Of a stretch of 50,907 nt of DNA, positions 70-18,228 are shown in pieces (within the stretch, counting starts at the first letter, position 1; each line of letters begins with the position of its first letter). A model generated the notes under the pieces. It worked only from the letters and a program-made list of their open reading frames with translations, was not told the origin of the DNA and searched no databases. Origin of the DNA: Ichthyobacteriaceae bacterium (GTDB lineage Bacteria > Bacteroidota > Bacteroidia > Flavobacteriales > JADGDT01); assembly GCA_016744755.1 (NCBI GenBank), contig JADGDT010000010.1, positions 1 to 50,907 of the forward strand, given 5' to 3'. The translations under genes and the position numbers were made by a program.

Positions 70-130
70 TCGCCCAACACACCATACATCAACCGTTAGG
101 TGCAAGCTGAAAAAAAATCCCACCGCACAG
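70..130. other. Intergenic boundary sequence with a short attC-like pair
   Basis: This stretch carries GCCCAAC (72-78) and GTTAGGT (95-101). These match the outer core pattern RYYYAAC...GTTRRRY of integron attC sites, but they are only about 16 bases apart, too close for a normal attC. It sits between the end of the preceding gene and the left copy of the island-flanking repeat. It may be a degenerate recombination scar. Confidence 0.25.
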
Positions 131-179
131 TCAAGCACATTTCATTTTGCTCGTGCCTCACAAAATAAAAAGAGCTTTC
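131..179. repeat. Left copy of the ~50-bp direct repeat flanking the AbiE/Hsd island
   Basis: The segment starts TCAAGCACATTT, continues TTTGCTCGTGCCTCACAAA and ends AAAAGAGCTTTC. The same blocks occur in the same order and orientation at 9258-9307, just after hsdR, with only about six differences. The two copies enclose exactly the six-gene unit 316-9246. This is seen directly; a role in insertion or excision is inference. Confidence 0.75.
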
Positions 180-234
180 CTTTCCCCACCACCGCCCATA
201 TTATTCGAAATCTCTGAATACCATTAATCAGTTT

Positions 235-314
235 GTCCCAAATAACTTATATTTTCGGGACAAAATAAATCCAACAAATAGTGTTAAGTCCCATTTATTT
301 ACTATTTTTGGGAC
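235..314 (+). promoter_or_regulatory. Twin 27-bp inverted repeats and -7 box controlling the abiE-hsd unit
   Basis: Two inverted repeats of identical design are present: GTCCC at 235-239 with GGGAC at 257-261, and GTCCC at 288-292 with GGGAC at 310-314. Each spans 27 bp and they start 53 bp apart. The second overlaps a Bacteroidota -7 box, TATTTTTG (303-310), and ends two bases before the ATG at 316. The transcript would be nearly leaderless. AbiEi antitoxins are known to repress their own operon by binding paired inverted repeats, so these are very likely AbiEi operators. Confidence 0.75.
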
Positions 315-315
315 A

Positions 316-897
316 ATGCTAGATTTAACTACCATAGAGAAAGAAATTAATAAAGGAGAAATCTTCTTTATCTCAGATTTTACTGAACTTGGTAATTATG
401 AAGCTGTGCGAAAATCTCTGCAACGTCTTACCAAAGACAGTATCATTAAGCGCATTGCAAAAGGAATATATTTTTTGCCAAAAAAACATAAATTACTAGG
501 TATCATTTACCCTCACGCAGAACAAATTGCAAAAGCAATAGCAAAACGTGACAAAGCAAGAATAATAGCTACTGGCTCTACGGCATTAAACTTATTAGGC
601 TTATCTACACAAATTCCATTAAAAATTGTGTTTTTAACAGATGGTTCAGCAAGAAAAATTAAAGTGGGAAACCAAACGATTCAGTTTAAAAAGACAAATC
701 CAAAAAACCTGAGTATTGAACACCGATTAACTAATCTTGTAATTCAAGCATTAAAAGAAATTGGAGAAAAAAATGTAACAAAAGAACAGATTGATAAAAT
801 ACAGAGCATAATTAAAGAGAGTAATGAACGAGATATTATCAATGAAAATTTAAAAAACGCCCCTGTTTGGATTCAAAAAACAATGATAAGCAAATGA
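316..897 (+). CDS. AbiEi-like type IV antitoxin / transcriptional repressor (DUF6088 type)
   Basis: This 193-residue protein has an N-terminal winged-helix-like region (about residues 1-60, including YEAVRKSLQRL and IIKRIAKGIYFLPKK). A C-terminal AbiEi/DUF6088-like part follows, with the ATGSTALNLLGLSTQIP segment at about 92-108. AbiEi proteins counteract the partner nucleotidyltransferase without binding it and repress their own promoter. The ATG at 316 lies directly after the second operator. The stop overlaps the next start (ATGA), typical of antitoxin-first abiE operons. Unusually, the operon continues into a type I restriction system. The family call is fairly sure; control over the downstream genes is inferred. 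Confidence 0.8.
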   Translation: MLDLTTIEKEINKGEIFFISDFTELGNYEAVRKSLQRLTKDSIIKRIAKGIYFLPKKHKLLGIIYPHAEQIAKAIAKRDKARIIATGSTALNLLGLSTQIPLKIVFLTDGSARKIKVGNQTIQFKKTNPKNLSIEHRLTNLVIQALKEIGEKNVTKEQIDKIQSIIKESNERDIINENLKNAPVWIQKTMISK

Positions 898-1877
898 ATA
901 ACTGGCTAAAATTAACAAAAGAGGAGCAAATAGAATTGTTTACCCAAATTGGTGTAAAAACAAATCTACCACCACAAGCAGTTGAAAAAGATGCTTGGGT
1001 AACGCTAATGCTACGGATGATTTTCACTTCCGATTTAGCAAGCCATTTAATATTCAAAGGTGGAACGTCTTTAAGTAAGGCTTTTAATTTAATTCATAGA
1101 TTCTCGGAAGATATTGATTTAGGAATTGACCGTAAACACTTAAATTTTGAAGGAGATTTGTCTAAAGGACAAATTCGAAAATTAAGAAGAGCTTGTCACA
1201 CGTTTGTTTCTACTAATCTATCTGAATTACTTCAAAAACAACTTACAGCATACGGCATTGATTCTAATTTGTATGAGATGATTGTTGAAAACACACAAGT
1301 ATCTGACCAAGACCCTGAAACAATTAAAGTGAATTATCAATCATTATTTGAAGAAGTATCCTATCTACCTAAAAGGGTATTGATAGAAGTTAGCGCAAGG
1401 TCATTGATAGAACCAAATCAAGAAGTTGCAATAAAATCAATGATTGATGAACACTATCCAGAAACGGGTTTTGCAGAACAAGAATTTATAGTAAACACAA
1501 CCAGCCCTCAAAAAACATTTTTGGAGAAACTGATTTTACTACACGAAGAATTTCAAAAACCAATTGAAAAAATTAGACACCTACGAATGTCTAGACATTT
1601 TTATGATATAGGACAAATACTAAATTCAGATTACGGTGTAAAGGCTTTGAAAAACACAACGCTGTTTGAAAGTATTATTGCTCATAGAAGCGTATTAACG
1701 CCTATGAAAACAACAGACTATAATGGTTTGACCTTAAAAAATCTTAACATCATTCCACCAGATGAGTTACTTGAAAGTTACAAATCTGATTATAAAGAAA
1801 TGCAGAATAGTATGATACACGGTGAATCACTTGATTTTGATGAGCTATTACAAAATATAATAAAAGAATTGAAATAA
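894..1877 (+). CDS. AbiEii-like nucleotidyltransferase toxin
   Basis: This 327-residue protein carries the minimal nucleotidyltransferase signature FKGGTSLSKAFNLIHRF then SEDIDLGI (about residues 53-78). The GGTSL and DxD elements bind nucleotide and metal. AbiEii toxins are GTP-binding nucleotidyltransferases that halt growth, originally in phage abortive infection. A TTG start upstream at 867 is possible, but the ATG at 894 forms an ATGA overlap with the antitoxin stop and is preferred. The TAA stop abuts the hsdM ATG with no gap, so toxin and methyltransferase should be co-translated. Catalytic residues look intact. Confidence 0.82.
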   Translation: MNNWLKLTKEEQIELFTQIGVKTNLPPQAVEKDAWVTLMLRMIFTSDLASHLIFKGGTSLSKAFNLIHRFSEDIDLGIDRKHLNFEGDLSKGQIRKLRRACHTFVSTNLSELLQKQLTAYGIDSNLYEMIVENTQVSDQDPETIKVNYQSLFEEVSYLPKRVLIEVSARSLIEPNQEVAIKSMIDEHYPETGFAEQEFIVNTTSPQKTFLEKLILLHEEFQKPIEKIRHLRMSRHFYDIGQILNSDYGVKALKNTTLFESIIAHRSVLTPMKTTDYNGLTLKNLNIIPPDELLESYKSDYKEMQNSMIHGESLDFDELLQNIIKELK

Positions 1878-3446
1878 ATGTCAGACGAACAAAAACAAAT
1901 ATTACAGAACAGCCTTTGGGCAATTGCCAACTTGCTTAGAGGAAAAATGAATCCTGATGATTATAGGGATTATATTTTAGGTTTTATTTTCTTTAAATAC
2001 CTTTCTGAAAAGCAAAATATTTATGTAACAGAACTTCTACAAGGCGAAGACGAAACCGACTTTAAAAAAGTAACTGATACCGAAACTTTAGAAGCTTTAC
2101 GTGAAGAGTGTATTATAAAATTAGGATATTTTTTAGAGCCAAAAGAGCTTTTTGAAACCATTGCCGAAAAAGGAAGTCGCAAAATTGAAGGCAAAAGTGA
2201 ATTTATCCTGGACGATTTACAAGCAGTCTTAAACCACATTGAACAAAGTACAATGGGCGAAGACTCAGAAGAAGACTTTGCTGCTCTGTTTGAAGATTTA
2301 GATTTAACTTCAACTAAACTAGGCAGAACCGTAAGTGCAAGAAATGAGATTATTGTAGATATCATTAAAGAATTACATAAGATTGATTTTAAATTAGAAG
2401 ATTTAGAATCTGATGTTTTGGGTGATGCTTACGAATACTTAATCGGAAATTTCGCTGCCCTTTCTGGAAAATCCAAAGGTGAGTTTTATACACCACAACA
2501 AGTATCAAAAATACTAGCGAAAATTGTTACACTTGGTAAGACTAAAATAAAATCTGTTTACGACCCAACTTGTGGTTCAGGTTCGCTTTTGTTACGTGTT
2601 AAACGAGAAGCAGATGTAAGTGAGTTTTACGGACAAGAATTAAACCGTACTACTTACAATTTAGCACGTATGAATATGATATTACACGATATTCATTACC
2701 GAAAATTTGACATTAAAAATGAAGACACCATTGAAAATCCTCAACATCTAGACAAAAGGTTCGAAGCTGTTGTTGCAAATCCACCGTTTTCGACACATTG
2801 GAAAGGAAAAGACAATCCTCTCAACAGCACAGATGAACGCTTTTCTCAATTTGGGAGACTTGCACCTAAAACTAAAGCCGATTACGCTTTTGTACAACAT
2901 ATGTTTTATCAATTAGCAGATAATGGGACTATGGCTGTTGTTTTACCACACGGAGTATTATTTAGAGGAGCTGCTGAAGGTGTAATTCGTAAATACTTAA
3001 TAAATGATAAAAACGCTTTAGATGCTGTAATTGGTTTACCAGCCAATATTTTTTACGGAACCTCTATTCCTACTTGTATTTTAGTACTTAAAAAATGCAG
3101 AAAAGCAGATGACAATATTGTCTTTATTGATGCAAGTGGAGATGACTATTTTATTAAAGGAGTTAATCAAAATGAACTACGAGATAAAGATGTAGAAAAA
3201 ATTGTAGACACGTATTCTGAAAGAATAACTACAGAAAAATATAGCAAAGTTGTAGAGTTAAAAGAAATCAAAAAAAATGACTACAATCTAAATATAGCAA
3301 GATATGTAGACACTTTTGAAGATGATGAGCCTATTGATATTGAAGCTTTAGCTACTGAATTAAAAGCTATTGATAAGCAAATAGCACCACTTAATGCAGA
3401 AATAAAGGCTTTTTGTGATGAACTCAATATTTCAACACCTTTTTAA
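1878..3446 (+). CDS. hsdM: Type I restriction-modification DNA methyltransferase subunit M
   Basis: This 522-residue N6-adenine methyltransferase has an N-terminal helical HsdM_N domain (about 1-140, with LWAIANLLRGKM and FIFFKYLSE). The Rossmann catalytic domain follows. YTPQQVSKIL leads into the SAM-binding DPTCGSGSLLLR (about 230), and motif IV is ANPPFS (about 307). It would form the M2S trimer with HsdS and methylate the HsdS target. It starts immediately after the abiEii stop and ends one base before hsdS. All expected motifs are present and the length is normal. Confidence 0.95.
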   Translation: MSDEQKQILQNSLWAIANLLRGKMNPDDYRDYILGFIFFKYLSEKQNIYVTELLQGEDETDFKKVTDTETLEALREECIIKLGYFLEPKELFETIAEKGSRKIEGKSEFILDDLQAVLNHIEQSTMGEDSEEDFAALFEDLDLTSTKLGRTVSARNEIIVDIIKELHKIDFKLEDLESDVLGDAYEYLIGNFAALSGKSKGEFYTPQQVSKILAKIVTLGKTKIKSVYDPTCGSGSLLLRVKREADVSEFYGQELNRTTYNLARMNMILHDIHYRKFDIKNEDTIENPQHLDKRFEAVVANPPFSTHWKGKDNPLNSTDERFSQFGRLAPKTKADYAFVQHMFYQLADNGTMAVVLPHGVLFRGAAEGVIRKYLINDKNALDAVIGLPANIFYGTSIPTCILVLKKCRKADDNIVFIDASGDDYFIKGVNQNELRDKDVEKIVDTYSERITTEKYSKVVELKEIKKNDYNLNIARYVDTFEDDEPIDIEALATELKAIDKQIAPLNAEIKAFCDELNISTPF

Positions 3447-3447
3447 T

Positions 3448-4671
3448 ATGTCGTTACTAAAAAACAAACCATTACTGCGTTTTCCTGAATTTACATCTGC
3501 TTGGGAAGAAAAAAAAATCTCTGAGATTTTTGAAAGAGTTGTAAACCCAGTTGATGTAGATAAAAAAGAGACCTATCAAGAATTAGGGATTCGTTCTCAC
3601 GGTAAAGGTATATTTCATAAACAACCGAAACTTGGTGCTAAAATTGGAAACAAAAGAGTGTTTTGGGTTAAAGAAAATACGTTCATTGTGAACATTGTAT
3701 TTGCTTGGGAACAAGCTGTAGCAAAAACTACAGAAAAGGAAGTTGGTTTAATAGCTTCCCATAGATTTCCAATGTATGACCCAATTAAAAATGTTTTAGA
3801 CCTCGATTTTATTTTATCTCTTTTTCTGCGTAAAAAAGGAAAAAATATTTTAGAATTAGCTTCACCTGGAGGTGCAGGTAGGAATAAAACTTTAGGGCAA
3901 AAAGTTTTTTCAGATACTGAAGTTATTATACCAAAAATTCAAGAACAAACTAAAATATCAAGTTTCTTAAAACTAAATGATGATAGGTTGAATGTACTAA
4001 TAAATAAAAAAGAGACACTAGAAGCATATAAAGAAGGTATTATCCGCAAAATCTTTAATAAAGACATTCGGTTTAAAGATAAAAATGGGAATGATTTTCC
4101 TGATTGGGAAGAAAAATTCTTAGGAGAAATAGGAGAATTTAGAACAAGTAGTGTTGACAAGAAAACGATTGAAGGAGAACCAGAAGTAAGACTTATAAAC
4201 TATATGAACGTTTATAAACACGAAAACATCACTAATAAGAACAAAGACAAACTAATGATAGTTTCAGCTAAAGAAACTCAATTAAAAAGCAGTAATTTGC
4301 TAAAAGGTGATATCCTATTTACACCTTCATCTGAGACGCCAAGCGATATTGGCCATTCAATCGTTATTTCAGAAAACTTAGAGAACACATTATTTAGCTA
4401 TCACTTAATGCGTTTCCGTCCAGCGATTGAAATTGATATTTTGTATTCTCATTATTTCTGCAATATTCCTTCTGTATTAAAGCAAATAACAAGATATACT
4501 ATTTCAGTTGGTTCATTCTCGAAAATTAAAGTTCAACTACCATCTATAAAAGAGCAAAAAAAAATAGCATCTTTTCTTTTTAATATTGACAATTCGATAA
4601 AGAATATTTCAAACCAAATTAAAAAATCAAAAAAGTTTAAAGAAGGGCTTGTTCAAAAAATGTTTGTGTAA
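3448..4671 (+). CDS. hsdS: Type I restriction-modification specificity subunit S
   Basis: This 407-residue protein has two target-recognition half-repeats. Each opens with a similar phrase (LRFPEFTSAWEEKKISEIF at the start, then NDFPDWEEKFLGEIGEF near 220). Each closes with a helical spacer (PKIQEQTKISSFL...KEGIIRKIF, and PSIKEQKKIASFL...KEGLVQKMF). HsdS sets the bipartite DNA target of both methylation and restriction. The ATG at 3448 is preferred over a start at 3415, because the latter would overlap hsdM and adds a tail unlike the family. The FRG gene begins one base after its stop. Confidence 0.93.
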   Translation: MSLLKNKPLLRFPEFTSAWEEKKISEIFERVVNPVDVDKKETYQELGIRSHGKGIFHKQPKLGAKIGNKRVFWVKENTFIVNIVFAWEQAVAKTTEKEVGLIASHRFPMYDPIKNVLDLDFILSLFLRKKGKNILELASPGGAGRNKTLGQKVFSDTEVIIPKIQEQTKISSFLKLNDDRLNVLINKKETLEAYKEGIIRKIFNKDIRFKDKNGNDFPDWEEKFLGEIGEFRTSSVDKKTIEGEPEVRLINYMNVYKHENITNKNKDKLMIVSAKETQLKSSNLLKGDILFTPSSETPSDIGHSIVISENLENTLFSYHLMRFRPAIEIDILYSHYFCNIPSVLKQITRYTISVGSFSKIKVQLPSIKEQKKIASFLFNIDNSIKNISNQIKKSKKFKEGLVQKMFV

Positions 4672-4672
4672 T

Positions 4673-6391
4673 ATGAATTTAACAACAATAAATAATAAAA
4701 TACAAGAAGAGTTTGAATCTTATTTAGTAAGCTTTCTAGACAATAAAAAATACTACTATTGGACGTTAGACTATTTTGAATCTGTAGGTGGTTTATCATT
4801 TCAACATTATTTTTTAAATGATGATGTAAAAAAAGAGATTAACACAACAGGAGAAACGTACTTTACAGAATCTAAAATTAATTTAAGCATTAATCGTAAT
4901 TCCCATAGAAACGATTTAGCTATAAAAAACATTGCCTCTCTTTTTGAAGACCATAAAGAAGATGGTCAAACAAAAAGATATGAATACATTAAAGAATTCA
5001 TCCTTTGGCAACTACTAACCCAACTCAATAAAAAAGACCCAAATAATAAAATTGAACTACAGAAAAACAACTTTCTGTACACCTATTTGCAATACTTAGT
5101 AAATAATCAAGCCCCAAGAAAAAGGTCTGATTTTATAGCTTACGCAAAAGCAGAACAAGGACGCGATTTGTTTATTCAATTAGCAGGTTTAGTAAAGGAA
5201 AACGAAAACCCTAATCAAGAACTACAATCGAGAGTTGAAAAACTTTTTATCTCAAAAGAATATGACGATAAAATTCATTTTGTGTTTTCAAAAGTTGGTA
5301 AAGAGGATAAAGAAGAATTACGAGAGTTATTGGATGTTTTAAGTAAAGGAAGCGTAAACAACTATTACAGAGGTCAAGCAGATGCAACGTGGTATCTAGA
5401 CTCTAGCCTTACAAGGGAAGAGAAATATGTAGAAAATGAAGCAAGAATGTATTATGATATTCTCTCGCTTAAACCAGAAGCATTTGTAAATGATTATAGT
5501 ATTTATGACCGCTTAATTACAATGCAGCATTTTGGAATGCCAACAAGGCTATTAGATATTACTCGTAATCCTTTAGTTTCCATCTTCTTTGCTTGTAATA
5601 ATTTAGACCGCGCAAATGCAGATGGTTTGGTATATTCCTTTGTACCAGATTCTGACAACTTCCTAAATTTTGATGATGAGCGTTTAAAATGTATCACAAA
5701 CAATGTTGTAAGTAAAGATGAAGATTATAAGAACAATTCTTGCAACTTAACCCAAACACAAAAAGAAGAATGCTTTGCTAAAAATTGGTTCGTTCAAGGA
5801 ATTGCTAAAAACCAAAGAATCAACAATCAAAGCGGTGATTTTATTTTTGTAAGTAGCGAAGCATCTAGAAAAAGTTTAGATAGTTTACCTACTAAGATTG
5901 TCATTATTGATGCAAATTCAAAGAAAGTATTACTTGAACAATTGGAATCTTTAAATATTCATAGTGGTTCGGTTTATCCAGACCTTAGCCATATGAGTAG
6001 TTATATAAGAGAACGCTATAAAGACGACAGTTACATTGCAAGTATTTCGCATAGACCAATTCCTGTTTACATAGATTCTAAAACCATAAACGAAAGACCA
6101 AAAGACAGCACGCCTAAAATACTCAGCAGCAAATTTGACGAAACCACTTTTTGGACAGATGATAGAAATAAGCAACTTACCGCTTATGCGAAATCAGAAA
6201 AACTTAAAATAAGCGAACTAAAAAAAGTAATCAGCACCTATTTATACGATGAAAAAGCACCTTTACCAGATAGTGTAATATCTGCATTAAAAAGTAAACC
6301 TAGCTTAAAAAACCGCAGAGGTATAGCAGAAGAAACCACTAATAAAATAGTTGCATTTGCAAAATCTTTAAATAACGAATCTAACAAATGA
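4673..6391 (+). CDS. FRG-domain protein with an HsdR-type C-terminal domain
   Basis: This 572-residue protein has three parts. Residues 1-210 are helical and unrecognised. Residues about 215-420 are an FRG domain, shown by NNYYRGQAD (about 233-241) and MQHFGMPTRLLDITRNPLVS then IFFAC (about 283-307). Residues about 503-570 match the C-terminal end of HsdR from this locus: KKVISTYLYDEKAPL against EKVIGDYMFTEKIPL, then KPSLKNR against RPSLKER, and TNKI in both. Roughly 40 percent of 66 positions are identical by eye. FRG domains have no settled biochemical function. The gene sits between hsdS and hsdR, one base after hsdS and overlapping hsdR by ATGA, so it is part of the restriction unit. A second effector recruited by the methyltransferase is inference. 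Confidence 0.85.
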   Translation: MNLTTINNKIQEEFESYLVSFLDNKKYYYWTLDYFESVGGLSFQHYFLNDDVKKEINTTGETYFTESKINLSINRNSHRNDLAIKNIASLFEDHKEDGQTKRYEYIKEFILWQLLTQLNKKDPNNKIELQKNNFLYTYLQYLVNNQAPRKRSDFIAYAKAEQGRDLFIQLAGLVKENENPNQELQSRVEKLFISKEYDDKIHFVFSKVGKEDKEELRELLDVLSKGSVNNYYRGQADATWYLDSSLTREEKYVENEARMYYDILSLKPEAFVNDYSIYDRLITMQHFGMPTRLLDITRNPLVSIFFACNNLDRANADGLVYSFVPDSDNFLNFDDERLKCITNNVVSKDEDYKNNSCNLTQTQKEECFAKNWFVQGIAKNQRINNQSGDFIFVSSEASRKSLDSLPTKIVIIDANSKKVLLEQLESLNIHSGSVYPDLSHMSSYIRERYKDDSYIASISHRPIPVYIDSKTINERPKDSTPKILSSKFDETTFWTDDRNKQLTAYAKSEKLKISELKKVISTYLYDEKAPLPDSVISALKSKPSLKNRRGIAEETTNKIVAFAKSLNNESNK

Positions 6392-9246
6392 CCACACAAC
6401 CAGAACAATTATTAGAAAACAATTTGGTGAGTCAATTAGCACAATTGGGTTATGAAAAAGTGATTATTAAAAATGAAGCAGATTTACTAATCAATCTAAA
6501 GTCACAGTTAGAAAAACACAATAAAATTACATTATCTGATAACGATTTTAAGCAGGTTTTAAACTACATTAACAAAGGTTCTATATTTCAAAGAGCCAAA
6601 ATACTGCGTGATAGAGTTCCATTTACAAATGACAAAGGAGAAAACAAAACCATAGAACTCATCAACCAATTACATTGGTGTAAAAACGAGTTTCAAGTTA
6701 CCCAACAAGTAACTATGGAAGGAAAATACAAAAACCGTTACGATGTAACCATCTTGATAAACGGTTTGCCTTTGGTTCAAATAGAACTAAAACGTAGAGG
6801 ATTAGAACTTAAAGAAGCTTTCAACCAAATTAACCGTTATGAGCGTCATAGTTTTGGTGCAGGAGCTGGATTATTTCAATTTGTGCAAATATTTGTTATT
6901 AGCAACGGTGTAAACACAAAATACTATGCTAACAGCCCAATAAAAGCACGAAGTTTTAAACAAACCTTTTATTGGAGCGATACCAAAAACAAACTCGTTA
7001 CCCAACTTTCAAAATTTACAGATATATTTTTAGAGCCTTGCCATATCTCTAAAATGATTACAAGATATGTTGTACAAAACGAATCTTCAAAAATATTAAT
7101 GGTACTTCGTCCCTATCAATATTTTGCAGTAGAAGCGATAATAGAAAGAGTAAAAAACACTAGTAAAAATGGATTTATTTGGCACACTACAGGTTCAGGT
7201 AAAACCTTAACCAGTTTTAAAGCCAGTCAAATTCTAACGAATATGCCCAAAGTTCATAAGGTGATTTTTGTGGTAGATAGAAAAGATTTGGATTACCAAA
7301 CTACAAAAGAGTTTAATAGTTTTAGCAAGGGTAGTATTGATGGCACAAATAACACTAAAGCTTTAGTAAAACAATTGTCTGGCGATAATAAATTGATTGT
7401 AACCACCATTCAAAAACTGAATACTGCCATTAGTAAAGCGAAGTATTTAAATCAAATTTCTGTTTTGAAAGACAAAAGAGTTATTTTTATATTTGATGAA
7501 TGCCACAGAAGTCAGTTTGGAAAAACACACGAAGACATTAAAAGCTTTTTCGAAAAAAGTCAGATGTTCGGTTTTACAGGAACACCAATTTTTGAAGAAA
7601 ACGCAGGAACCAATGAATTTGGAAAACGAACAACTGCAATGCTATTTGGTGGCGAAAAAGCTTTACACAAGTATGTTATTACAGATGCCATAAGAGATGA
7701 AAATGTTTTAAAGTTCTCAATTGAATACATTAATACATTCAAAAAGAAAGAACACATTTTGGATATTGATGTTGAAGCTATTGACGAAAAAGAAGTAATG
7801 GAAGCACCTGAGCGTTTAGATGCCATTACTGAATACATAATTGCCAACCACAACAGAAAAACACATAGTAAAGAGTTTACAGCAATAATGTGTGTAAGTA
7901 ATATAGAAACACTCATTAAATATTACCAACTTTTTAAAGCGAAAGACCATAATATAAAAGTAGCAACTATATTTTCTTATCAAGCCAACGAAGAAGACAA
8001 AGATGCTTTAGGTTTTACAACTTCAGATTTTGACGAAGTAGATTTGAATGTTGTTGCTGAACCAGTTACTAAATATAAATCTCAACATACAAGAGAACAT
8101 TTAGATAGTTTTATTGCAGATTACAACAAAACCTTTGGAACAAATTATTCAACAAAAGACACTCAAAGTTATTATAACTATCACAACGATATTGCTAAAC
8201 GAGTAAAACACAGACAGGTTGATATTTTATTGGTAGTAAATATGTTTTTAACTGGTTTTGACAGTAAAACATTAAATACTATTTACGTTGATAAAAACTT
8301 AAAATATCACGGTTTAATCCAAGCATTTTCAAGAACAAACAGAATTTTAAACGAAGTAAAATCACAAGGAAATGTAGTTTGTTTTAGAAATTTAAAACAG
8401 CATACAGATGATGCAATCGCTTTATTCTCAAACATAGAATCTAAGGATGAAATAATTATTGAACCTTATGAAGATTATGTAAGTAAAATGAATGAAGCAT
8501 TTATACAATTGCTTCAAATTGCACCAACAATAGATAGTGTTTCGAATTTAGAAAGTGAAGAAGATGAATTAGCTTTTGCTAAAGCGTTTAGAGAACTAAT
8601 GCGAACACTAAATGTTTTAAAGACCTTTACGGAATTTAGTTTTGATGATATAAGTATAAATGAACAAACTTTTGAAGATTACAAAAGCAAGTATTTAGAT
8701 TTAAGAGACAAAGTAAAAAGAGAAAATGCAAAGGAAAAAGTTTCTATTCTTAATGATATAGATTTCGAATTAGAGTTAATTCATAGAGACGAAATTAATG
8801 TTACCTATATTTTAAAATTACTGGCAAATCTTAAAAATTCTGTATCTGTTGAGGAACAAGAAAAACAACTGAAAAACATAATGGATATTGTGGCTGGAGA
8901 TACACAGCTAAGAAGTAAACGTGAGTTAATTGAAAAATTCATAAATGAACATTTACCAATAATTGAGGATTCTGAAGATATTCCGGATGAATTTGTGAAG
9001 TTTATGACAACTGAAAAATTAGAAGCCATAAAATCATTGAGTAAAGAAGAGAATTTGGATTCTGACAAACTAGAAAAAGTAATTGGCGATTATATGTTTA
9101 CAGAGAAAATCCCATTACGTGACGACATAATAGACACAATGAGAACTCGTCCAAGTTTGAAAGAAAGAAAAACCAAAGCGGAAAGAATAACTAATAAGAT
9201 ACTGGAATTTGTGGAGACATTTATTAGCGGAATTATGACGGAATAG
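6388..9246 (+). CDS. hsdR: Type I restriction endonuclease/translocase subunit R
   Basis: This 952-residue protein is of the EcoR124I kind. The PD-(D/E)xK nuclease lies near residues 115-140 (RYDVTILINGLPLVQIELKRRG is its D...ExK core, split here as RYDVTILING and LPLVQIELKRRG). The superfamily 2 motor has Walker A HTTGSGKTLTSFK (about 268), the DECH box in FDECHRSQFG (about 370) and motif VI QAFSRTNRILNEV (about 650). A helical C-terminal domain follows, homologous to the end of the upstream FRG protein. It translocates DNA and cleaves unmodified DNA with M2S. The start overlaps the FRG stop by four bases. No inactivating change is visible. Confidence 0.95.
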   Translation: MTTQPEQLLENNLVSQLAQLGYEKVIIKNEADLLINLKSQLEKHNKITLSDNDFKQVLNYINKGSIFQRAKILRDRVPFTNDKGENKTIELINQLHWCKNEFQVTQQVTMEGKYKNRYDVTILINGLPLVQIELKRRGLELKEAFNQINRYERHSFGAGAGLFQFVQIFVISNGVNTKYYANSPIKARSFKQTFYWSDTKNKLVTQLSKFTDIFLEPCHISKMITRYVVQNESSKILMVLRPYQYFAVEAIIERVKNTSKNGFIWHTTGSGKTLTSFKASQILTNMPKVHKVIFVVDRKDLDYQTTKEFNSFSKGSIDGTNNTKALVKQLSGDNKLIVTTIQKLNTAISKAKYLNQISVLKDKRVIFIFDECHRSQFGKTHEDIKSFFEKSQMFGFTGTPIFEENAGTNEFGKRTTAMLFGGEKALHKYVITDAIRDENVLKFSIEYINTFKKKEHILDIDVEAIDEKEVMEAPERLDAITEYIIANHNRKTHSKEFTAIMCVSNIETLIKYYQLFKAKDHNIKVATIFSYQANEEDKDALGFTTSDFDEVDLNVVAEPVTKYKSQHTREHLDSFIADYNKTFGTNYSTKDTQSYYNYHNDIAKRVKHRQVDILLVVNMFLTGFDSKTLNTIYVDKNLKYHGLIQAFSRTNRILNEVKSQGNVVCFRNLKQHTDDAIALFSNIESKDEIIIEPYEDYVSKMNEAFIQLLQIAPTIDSVSNLESEEDELAFAKAFRELMRTLNVLKTFTEFSFDDISINEQTFEDYKSKYLDLRDKVKRENAKEKVSILNDIDFELELIHRDEINVTYILKLLANLKNSVSVEEQEKQLKNIMDIVAGDTQLRSKRELIEKFINEHLPIIEDSEDIPDEFVKFMTTEKLEAIKSLSKEENLDSDKLEKVIGDYMFTEKIPLRDDIIDTMRTRPSLKERKTKAERITNKILEFVETFISGIMTE

Positions 9247-9257
9247 CCAACGCAAGT

Positions 9258-9307
9258 TCAAGCACATTTAAAGTTTGCTCGTGCCTCACAAATTTAAAAG
9301 AGCTTTC
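9258..9307. repeat. Right copy of the ~50-bp direct repeat flanking the AbiE/Hsd island
   Basis: This segment begins 11 bases after the hsdR stop and matches 131-179 in the same orientation (TCAAGCACATTT, TTTGCTCGTGCCTCACAAA, AAAAGAGCTTTC). It marks the right edge of the island. The flanking sequence CACGCCAACGCTAGCAAG has no gene. Confidence 0.75.
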
Positions 9308-9349
9308 ACGCCAACGCTAGCAAGTTTGCGGAAAGAAAAAAAGCCAGAC

Positions 9350-9545
9350 ACCTAACAATGTATAAAAAACATAGGGCAGTTTGTGCTAAACTCTAAGGTC
9401 TGTACATATTAACAAAGTCCGCTAAATATAAAATTTGGCATTTAAGAGAAAAATAAAAGCAAAATATTTATATTTAGCTAAGTAATAAACCGAAACGAAA
9501 TTGCTTATTTATTGCCCTACGTTTCTTATACTAACCGTTCTACAT
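9350..9545. repeat. Long hairpin boundary element A
   Basis: The outer arms GTATAAAAAACATAGGGCA (9360-9378) and TGCCCTACGTTTCTTATAC (9513-9531) pair at 17 of 19 positions. An inner perfect 12-bp stem pairs GCTAAATATAAA (9421-9432) with TTTATATTTAGC (9467-9478). The left end reads ACCTAACAA and the right end ends in GTTCTAC. There is no gene here; the element fills most of the gap between hsdR and the AraC gene. Confidence 0.6.
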
Positions 9546-16851: not shown

Positions 16852-17913
16852 CTATGAGCGGTCTGCAAGACCCAGCGATGAGTCTAGTGTTGAACTACAT
16901 CCGTGCATCCTGCCTTTTTTACATTTCTGGCATAGACCAATATCAAAACCTGTAAGTCTTTTTATACGCTCTGTGGGAGTTTCCTTTTTTTTGGATTCAA
17001 TTAATTCATCTATATCAGGTTTATGCTCTGCTTCAAACTGTAATTCTAAATTACGTTTTGTGGTATGATTGTAAATACTATAACGTCTTATTCGTACAAA
17101 ACGTTTGGGTAAAACATAAAGACAGAATCGCTTTAAAAATTCAACTCCTTCTTCGAGCAAATGAGTTGCATAAGTATGTCGTAATGAATGGAGGTTTACT
17201 TCTTTTGTAATCGATGTTTTCTTTAAGTTTTCTCGCATTACCCACGATAGTCCCCTAACACTATATTGACTATCTAACTGTTTACCATTGAATAACCAAA
17301 TATGTGGATTTTCTGCTTTTAAATACTTTTTCAATCCATATGACATGGTTGGTGATAGAGGTAATATTCTATCTTTCTTATACTTGCTTTGGCGAATATG
17401 TATTGTCATACGCTCAAAATCAACATCAGATATTTTAAGATTTATAACTTCTTGTCCTCGTAAACCTGCTGAATATATTAAAGTTAAAACTATACGTTGC
17501 TTTAGTAGTGACGGTGCCAAAAACAACTCTCTAAGTTCTTTACGATTTAGAATAATAGGTAGTTTGGTCTCTCGTTTTAAGCTAGGTAATGCTATTGCAT
17601 TTTTATTCATACCTAGTAGTCGATAATAATAGCGGAGACCATAAACCATATGCTTAAAACTACTACGTGAAGGAGATTTTGGATCGCGAGCTAGAGATAC
17701 CAAATACTCATTAATCTCATCTTCACTTACTTGTTCTGGTAGCCTTTTAAAATGGAGTACAAACAAAGCTATGCGTCTTCCATAATTACTTAAGGTACTT
17801 TCACTTTGTCTTCGTAAAGTAACTTGTTGTGATAATTTCACAAGTACTTTTTTGAAACCAGGAACTACAATAATTGCCCGTTCCAAAATGGTTGGAGAGA
17901 TTCTATTTCTCAT
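16852..17913 (-). pseudogene. Chimeric remnant: tyrosine recombinase fused to an IS91-type transposase tail
   Basis: This 353-codon frame has two unrelated parts. Residues 1 to about 252 are a tyrosine recombinase: an N-terminal SAM-like core-binding domain, the first catalytic Arg in SAGLRGQEVINLKISDVDF, the Lys-bearing strand RQSKYKKDRILPL, and the HxxR motif HSLRHTYATHLLEEGV. The second His and the catalytic Tyr are missing. From EFLKRFCLYVLPKRFVRIRRY onward it is the end of an IS91-type (HUH) transposase, with a terminal CQKCKKGRM zinc-knuckle-like motif. Bacteroidota carry elements in which such an integrase precedes an IS91 transposase. An internal deletion joining the two in frame explains the product, which should be inactive. 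Confidence 0.8.
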
Positions 17914-17997: not shown

Positions 17998-18141
17998 CGC
18001 CGTTGGCGGATTTAGTTCAACAATGGCTATAGTTAATACGGGTTTTAGTGATAAAAACAAAGATTAGTTCATTAAATAAACTTAGTACAAGTCCGAAAGT
18101 TCAGTTCTCTGAACTCCCGTACTAACCATAGCCGAGACGTT
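17998..18141. repeat. Long hairpin boundary element C
   Basis: The arms GGCTATAGTTAATACGGG (18025-18042) and CCCGTACTAACCATAGCC (18116-18133) pair at 16 of 18 positions. Smaller perfect hairpins are CCGCCGTTGGCGG (17998-18010) and GTTCAGTTCTCTGAAC (18099-18114). The ends read GTTCAACAA and GACGTTGTAC. It lies between the recombinase remnant and the Fic pair; no gene is seen from 17914 to 18228. Confidence 0.65.
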
Positions 18142-18228
18142 GTACACCATTTGGAGACACAATCACAGAATAGGAAAATTTGACAAAAATGATTAAATTT
18201 GCAGTGATTAATTTAAATCAGATAGAAT

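Follow-up and report, generated by a model that had tools for sequence, protein, structure and literature searches.

The window, meaning the whole stretch of 50,907 nucleotides analysed here (contig JADGDT010000010.1 of an Ichthyobacteriaceae bacterium, assembly GCA_016744755.1), begins with approximately 230 bp of non-coding DNA, followed by two palindromes, the single base A315, and the ATG of abiEi at 316. The genes abiEi-abiEii-hsdM-hsdS-FRG-hsdR are all on one strand, each abutting or overlapping its neighbour, and hsdR is presumed to be the end of a single operon. The features are:

235..261, no strand: distal dyad GTCCC-AAATAACTTATATTTTC-GGGAC, a putative operator without a usable -7 box (TATTTTCG)
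262..287, no strand: spacer of 26 bp between the dyads, its length kept among relatives and its sequence not
288..314, no strand: proximal dyad GTCCC-ATTTATTTACTATTTTT-GGGAC, a candidate operator overlapping the promoter, found in 15/15 loci of the twin clade described below
303..310, plus strand: -7 box TATTTTTG (TAHHTTTG), its final G being the first base of the right arm of the proximal dyad
315..316, plus strand: transcription start predicted at A315 or A316 from published numbering and spacing, for a leader of 1 or 0 nt
316..897, plus strand: abiEi, antitoxin of the DUF6088 family, 193 aa, a wHTH protein with recognition helix residues 28-40
894..1877, plus strand: abiEii, nucleotidyltransferase toxin, joined to abiEi by an ATGA overlap
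1878..3446, plus strand: hsdM, beginning directly after the abiEii stop
3445..4671, plus strand: hsdS, by homology
4676..6391, plus strand: FRG-domain protein (PADLOC PDC-S15), by homology
6388..9246, plus strand: hsdR, from its open reading frame and translation and from type I R subunit homology in L005, L007 and L010; overlaps the FRG gene

The first two genes constitute a predicted AbiE type IV toxin-antitoxin system, consisting of an AbiEi protein with a wHTH domain and a C-terminal antitoxin domain and an adjoining AbiEii protein. AbiEi matches Pfam DUF6088 (1.7e-66) and PADLOC AbiEi (4.7e-67), and AbiEii matches the Pfam (1.4e-36) and PADLOC (1.4e-95) models of its own family; the NCBIfam AbiEi equivalog falls below its cut-off for this protein (34.8 of 150 bits). 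An AlphaFold model of AbiEi built from 57 aligned proteins (mean pLDDT 91) contains a wHTH whose third helix, residues 28-40, is one helix. The three best PDB matches of this model by Foldseek are AbiEi of Streptococcus agalactiae (6Y8Q, two chains) and Rv2827c of Mycobacterium tuberculosis (1ZEL), with whole-chain TM-scores of only 0.34-0.46, as expected of two domains with a variable hinge. The start codon of abiEi is supported by the point at which synonymous change sets in, right after the ATG: of 387 pairwise codon differences in codons 2-6, 159 are synonymous, as against 22 of 278 for the in-frame codons preceding the ATG. A TTG start at -30, inside the proximal dyad, was considered and rejected because its frame is not conserved.

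Both palindromes are 27 bp long, with GTCCC and GGGAC arms around a 17-nt spacer, and their starts are 53 bp apart. A whole-genome search for the exact pattern located it at these two sites only in the 3.64 Mb genome. The same arrangement characterizes a clade (SH-aLRT 99) of 14 loci from GTDB genomes with 75-88% protein identity to the window, plus L019, which was found by whole-genome search; the counts out of 15 include the window and leave out L019, which is near-identical to L018. This twin clade spans the Flavobacteriaceae, Reichenbachiellaceae, Fulvivirgaceae and Cyclobacteriaceae, and is rare: whole-genome searches gave no further member in one family (399 genomes) and L019 alone in another. 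The proximal palindrome is present at 15 of the 15 loci and always ends 1 nt before the ATG, and the distal palindrome is intact at 13 of them, with a spacer 1 nt longer in L015; L011 has one arm mismatch, and L008 lacks the distal copy. The mean pairwise identity of the DNA between the dyads is 0.40, versus 0.87 for the proximal dyad and 0.72 for the distal dyad. The dyad-to-dyad spacing is 53 or 54 bp in most loci, 43 bp in L014 and 32 bp in L007, which correspond to approximately five, four and three helical turns; from these three spacing classes we infer, as seems reasonable, that the dyads may cooperate from the same face of the DNA.

Outside the close clade of the window, L148 possesses independent twin 26-bp dyads with GTCAC arms, 42 bp apart, of which the proximal one lies 3 nt before the ATG. 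An exact-pattern scan of IMG/VR produced 64 matches, none of them with a DUF6088 gene, and a protein scan of IMG/VR found no relative, so the module is not phage cargo in that collection. DUF6088 genes on plasmid records have at most 44.5% identity among the matches listed. Rfam yielded only a chance-level match to OrzO-P.

The proximal palindrome is locked to a promoter element. In 44 of 48 representatives of the wider DUF6088 family, TAHHTTTG, the -7 box of Bacteroidota sigma-ABfr promoters, spans positions 15-22 of the dyad, so that the right arm opens with the final G of the box. In the window, TATTTTTG is the only TAHHTTTG within 315 bp upstream of abiEi. Within the twin clade, the proximal dyad retains TTTG at 15/15 loci and TA at 12/15; the Cytophagales-type loci L015-L017 have CATTTTTG as the proximal box, with T-12 missing. 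The distal dyad has TTTG in none of its intact copies, a C replacing the last T to give CGGGAC in every case, and therefore only the proximal copy is credible as a promoter. The possibility of a second promoter in the distal copy was rejected for this loss of TTTG, and by its sequence the distal palindrome is a candidate operator without a promoter. No -33 TTTG or TTG was found by eye at the usual distance in the window, and this element is reported to be weak or absent in flavobacteria (PMC6847099, PMC7366714).

In the numbering of Baez et al. (PMC6847099), the -7 box runs from T-12 to G-5 and the start follows after 4-5 nt; PMC9723704 likewise places the box at -12 to -5. Applied to 303-310, this spacing gives A315 or A316 as the start, and the abiEi mRNA of the window is therefore predicted to be leaderless, its 5' end at or next to the AUG. 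An earlier note on this DNA, made from the sequence alone, had described two inverted repeats of identical arm and spacer lengths 53 bp apart, the proximal one overlapping the -7 box, and both descriptions hold (235-261 and 288-314, with the box inside the latter). It was right to place the proximal repeat close to the ATG, from which it is separated by one base (A315) rather than two, and its start site about 7 nt after the box gives way to the published 4-5 nt. Its proposal of essentially no leader agrees with a predicted leader of 0-1 nt in 15/15 twin-operator loci. The suggestion that repression and translation initiation share the same DNA applies to neighbouring bases of one DNA segment and not to a single RNA site, since the palindrome itself would be absent from the mRNA. 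The same spacing rule predicts leaders of 4-142 nt (median 17) for single-dyad relatives, and leaderless or very short-leader mRNAs make up only approximately 4-6% of cases in published surveys (PMC7366714, PMC9723704), which makes the predicted leader of abiEi uncommon, yet with precedent.

Transcription may instead start farther upstream, from a weak promoter in the distal copy or the spacer, giving a leader of 30-60 nt that includes the proximal palindrome, with AbiEi still acting on the operator pair. Such a start would suit the retention of TATTTTCG in the distal copy at four loci (the window, L009, L010 and L017), the additional TAHHTTTG at -35 in L009 and L010 (TATATTTG), which would give a short leader, and the fact that most flavobacterial mRNAs have leaders (PMC6847099, PMC9723704). 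However, the proximal box is the sole upstream TAHHTTTG in the window, TTTG is missing from every distal copy and TA from most, and the -35 box is not conserved, all of which makes an upstream start unlikely.

The DUF6088 proteins of Bacteroidota with 38-55% identity to AbiEi mostly have a single 27-bp dyad with different arms, namely GTCGC, GTCAC, GTAAC and rarely GTCAG. The earlier note had proposed a search for the motif upstream of DUF6088 homologues, and dyads of the same geometry are indeed found across Bacteroidota: a good-quality 27-bp dyad precedes 56 of 70 homologues, compared with 228 of 2800 Markov shuffles (8%), counts that lean upward because dyads were chosen with at least 4/5 arm matches. 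Among the 48 representatives, base 4 of the arm is G, A or C, and its complement is on the opposite side in 48/48, whereas arm partners dealt out at random average 16 complementary pairs and reach 26 at most; the selection favours pairing, yet it cannot by itself account for three arm types that are all fully complementary.

The arms also covary with the protein. The residues with the highest mutual information with arm type, over all columns, are 36, 32 and 29 (i+7, i+3 and i), which lie on one face of helix 28-40. Residue 29 is K or R in 18 of 18 proteins with GTCG arms and in none of the 44 others, and residue 36 is E in all 18 and in one protein besides. A tree from which the recognition-helix columns were left out requires at least nine changes of arm type; for residue 29 and the arm, two independent contrasts on supported branches agree, too few for significance, and the covariation as a whole is partly phylogenetic, with only 2-4 independent pairs, again too few for significance. 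Together, the wHTH model, the Foldseek matches and this covariation make AbiEi the likely ligand of the palindromes. The reading of the palindromes as an AbiEi operator pair, which the earlier note had put forward, gains support from the dyad geometry, the covariation of arm and helix, and the -7 box locked in the dyad.

Two other arrangements were observed among the relatives. On contig C199 of the same genome as the window, a second DUF6088 homologue (48% identity; L002) is interrupted by a stop codon in frame, and its GTCGC operator has decayed; gene and operator appear to degrade together. A remoter branch of longer AbiEi-like proteins (approximately 250 aa; L037, L039, L040, L042 and L043) is preceded by a different conserved dyad, GTCCAG-N16-CTGGAC.

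It is improbable that the palindromes bind another regulator, such as a host repressor, because the motif accompanies abiEi in different families and orders, is found nowhere else in the genome, and has an arm type that tracks the helix residues of AbiEi. Still less probable is a role of the arms as RNA hairpins, in an attenuator or in translational control: inverted repeats are able to pair in RNA, but these have arms of 5-8 bp around a 17-nt AT-rich loop, the 22-bp distance between half-site centres fits a pair of proteins on DNA, and with a -7 box in fixed register inside the dyad, most of the dyad would be untranscribed. Chance similarity of AT-rich promoter DNA, which the short arms might have suggested, is refuted by conservation at 15/15 loci together with uniqueness in the whole genome, the 64 IMG/VR matches devoid of DUF6088 showing what chance matches look like.

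The palindrome pair is thus quite probably a double operator for AbiEi, through which the toxin-antitoxin pair and the restriction-modification (R-M) genes would be autorepressed at a leaderless promoter. From the dyads, their register and conservation, the covariation and the gene order, all of which are features of the sequence itself, we infer binding, cooperativity, the start site and the single transcript. Within one dyad, two wHTH domains of AbiEi would bind to the GTCCC arms, which would place them two turns apart along the same face of the DNA. AbiEi on the proximal dyad would cover the -7 box and the start site, shutting off the sigma-ABfr RNA polymerase. The distal dyad, on the same face approximately five turns upstream, may no longer function as a promoter and may instead be an auxiliary site, which reinforces repression through cooperative contact or bending. 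At low levels of AbiEi, transcription would proceed from A315 or A316, producing a leaderless abiEi mRNA on which the tightly coupled abiEii-hsdM-hsdS-FRG-hsdR genes would follow, and AbiEi would in this way autoregulate both the toxin-antitoxin pair and the downstream restriction system.

Similar modules precede various defence genes. A defence gene lies behind abiEii in at least 10 of the 15 twin-clade loci: type I R-M genes in the window, L005, L007, L010, L011, L012, L014 and L016, a C5 cytosine methyltransferase in L015, and PARIS AriA-AriB in L017 after a gap of 278 nt; L008 and L018 retain hsdM fragments. The next gene starts -4 to +5 nt from the end of abiEii in the window, L005, L007, L010, L012, L014 and L015, and overlaps it by 14 nt in L016. 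At L011 (3046-3434), approximately 200 codons of abiEii are missing. The locus nevertheless retains AbiEi, the promoter with its proximal operator, and the type I R-M genes, which points to a benefit of the regulator even in the absence of the toxin. None of 20 single-dyad loci has the R-M genes of the window by tblastn, and two of these 20 have close defence genes (Lamassu-like in L173, Druantia-like in L183), the searches for defence genes having been non-identical between the twin-clade and single-dyad loci. At L016:8388-10154, a GmrSD-type (type IV restriction) gene is located within the type I hsdM operon behind the AbiE module.

Several repeats surround the operon. A hairpin-forming stretch at 120-179 is repeated (85%) at 9247-9307, directly after the hsdR stop, which leaves the AbiE/R-M block between two direct repeats. 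Hairpins of a related kind, with compensated stems, are found upstream of the operators in L006, L007, L012, L014, L015, L016 and L018, and there is a second related copy at L012:523. Sites resembling attC (RYYYAAC...GTTRRRY, imperfect stem) are present in the window at 92-98, 9350-9543 (ACCTAAC...GTTCTAC, ssDNA fold z -3.4) and 18019-18145; ACCTAAC at 9350 and GTTAGGT at 92-98 are exact complements, and therefore 93-9537 could be one 9.4-kb cassette. A search of the genome for an integron integrase gave no TIGR02249 match over the cut-off (best single stretch, 120/265 bits). A tyrosine recombinase gene is encoded on the minus strand at 16852-17913, beside the attC-like site at 18019-18145.

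The large uncharacterised DUF6088 family thereby obtains a concrete candidate operator and a candidate protein-DNA recognition code. Control of R-M genes by a toxin-antitoxin pair in the same operon may be explained by repression of the shared promoter by the antitoxin. The operator, -7 box, predicted start site and AUG fall within approximately 30 bp at 15 loci of several families, which would be a natural case for leaderless translation in a phylum without Shine-Dalgarno sites, where a few percent of mRNAs are leaderless. Tentatively, and with some doubt, we propose that a portable AbiE module with a double operator and a leaderless mRNA has spread through the Bacteroidota, acting as the regulatory head of unrelated defence operons, with a code in helix residues 29, 32 and 36. 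If so, one antitoxin would set the expression of whichever defence system follows, and DNA specificity could be read from these three residues.

Controller proteins are small DNA-binding proteins encoded ahead of restriction genes, the expression of which they time or limit. The putative regulator in the window would work in a similar manner, but it does not belong to this class: it has an AbiEi/wHTH fold, the R-M system is of type I, and the regulator is an antitoxin whose toxin is encoded in the same operon.

Autorepression of AbiE through inverted repeats is already known, as AbiEi proteins described in PMC7319586 and PMC11062541 act in this way. The AbiEi of S. agalactiae binds cooperatively as two monomers and bends the DNA (PMC7319586). 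Both S. agalactiae abiE and the window encode an AbiEi-family wHTH antitoxin, the fold being matched by Foldseek, with inverted repeats that overlap the promoter (IR1-IR2; PMC7319586 and its reference 29). Negative autoregulation with positive cooperativity is reported there for S. agalactiae, and the parallel in the window is predicted. The S. agalactiae repeats, two of 23 bp located 3 bp apart, form one set, whereas the window has two complete 27-bp dyads at 53 bp, a fixed -7 register, a predicted leaderless mRNA and type I R-M genes in the operon.

Rv2827c of M. tuberculosis is another AbiEi-like antitoxin with two pairs of inverted repeats upstream, which cover the promoter and reach -1 from the start codon (PMC7319586). 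It differs in phylum, in repeat length and in having gaps of 13 bp within pairs and 4 bp between them, as well as in its reported negative cooperativity, and the consulted passages of PMC7319586 mention no restriction genes. The AbiEi of a Streptococcus suis ICE binds two promoter palindromes, both of which are required for repression, and also controls other functions of its element, but its other targets, oriT and the sezAT promoter, are not restriction genes transcribed together with it (PMC11062541). As far as searches of the open-access literature show, the putative operator of the DUF6088 branch and its fixed lock with the Bacteroidota -7 box are new, as are the correlation with the recognition helix, the twin leaderless variant, and the placement ahead of diverse defence operons.
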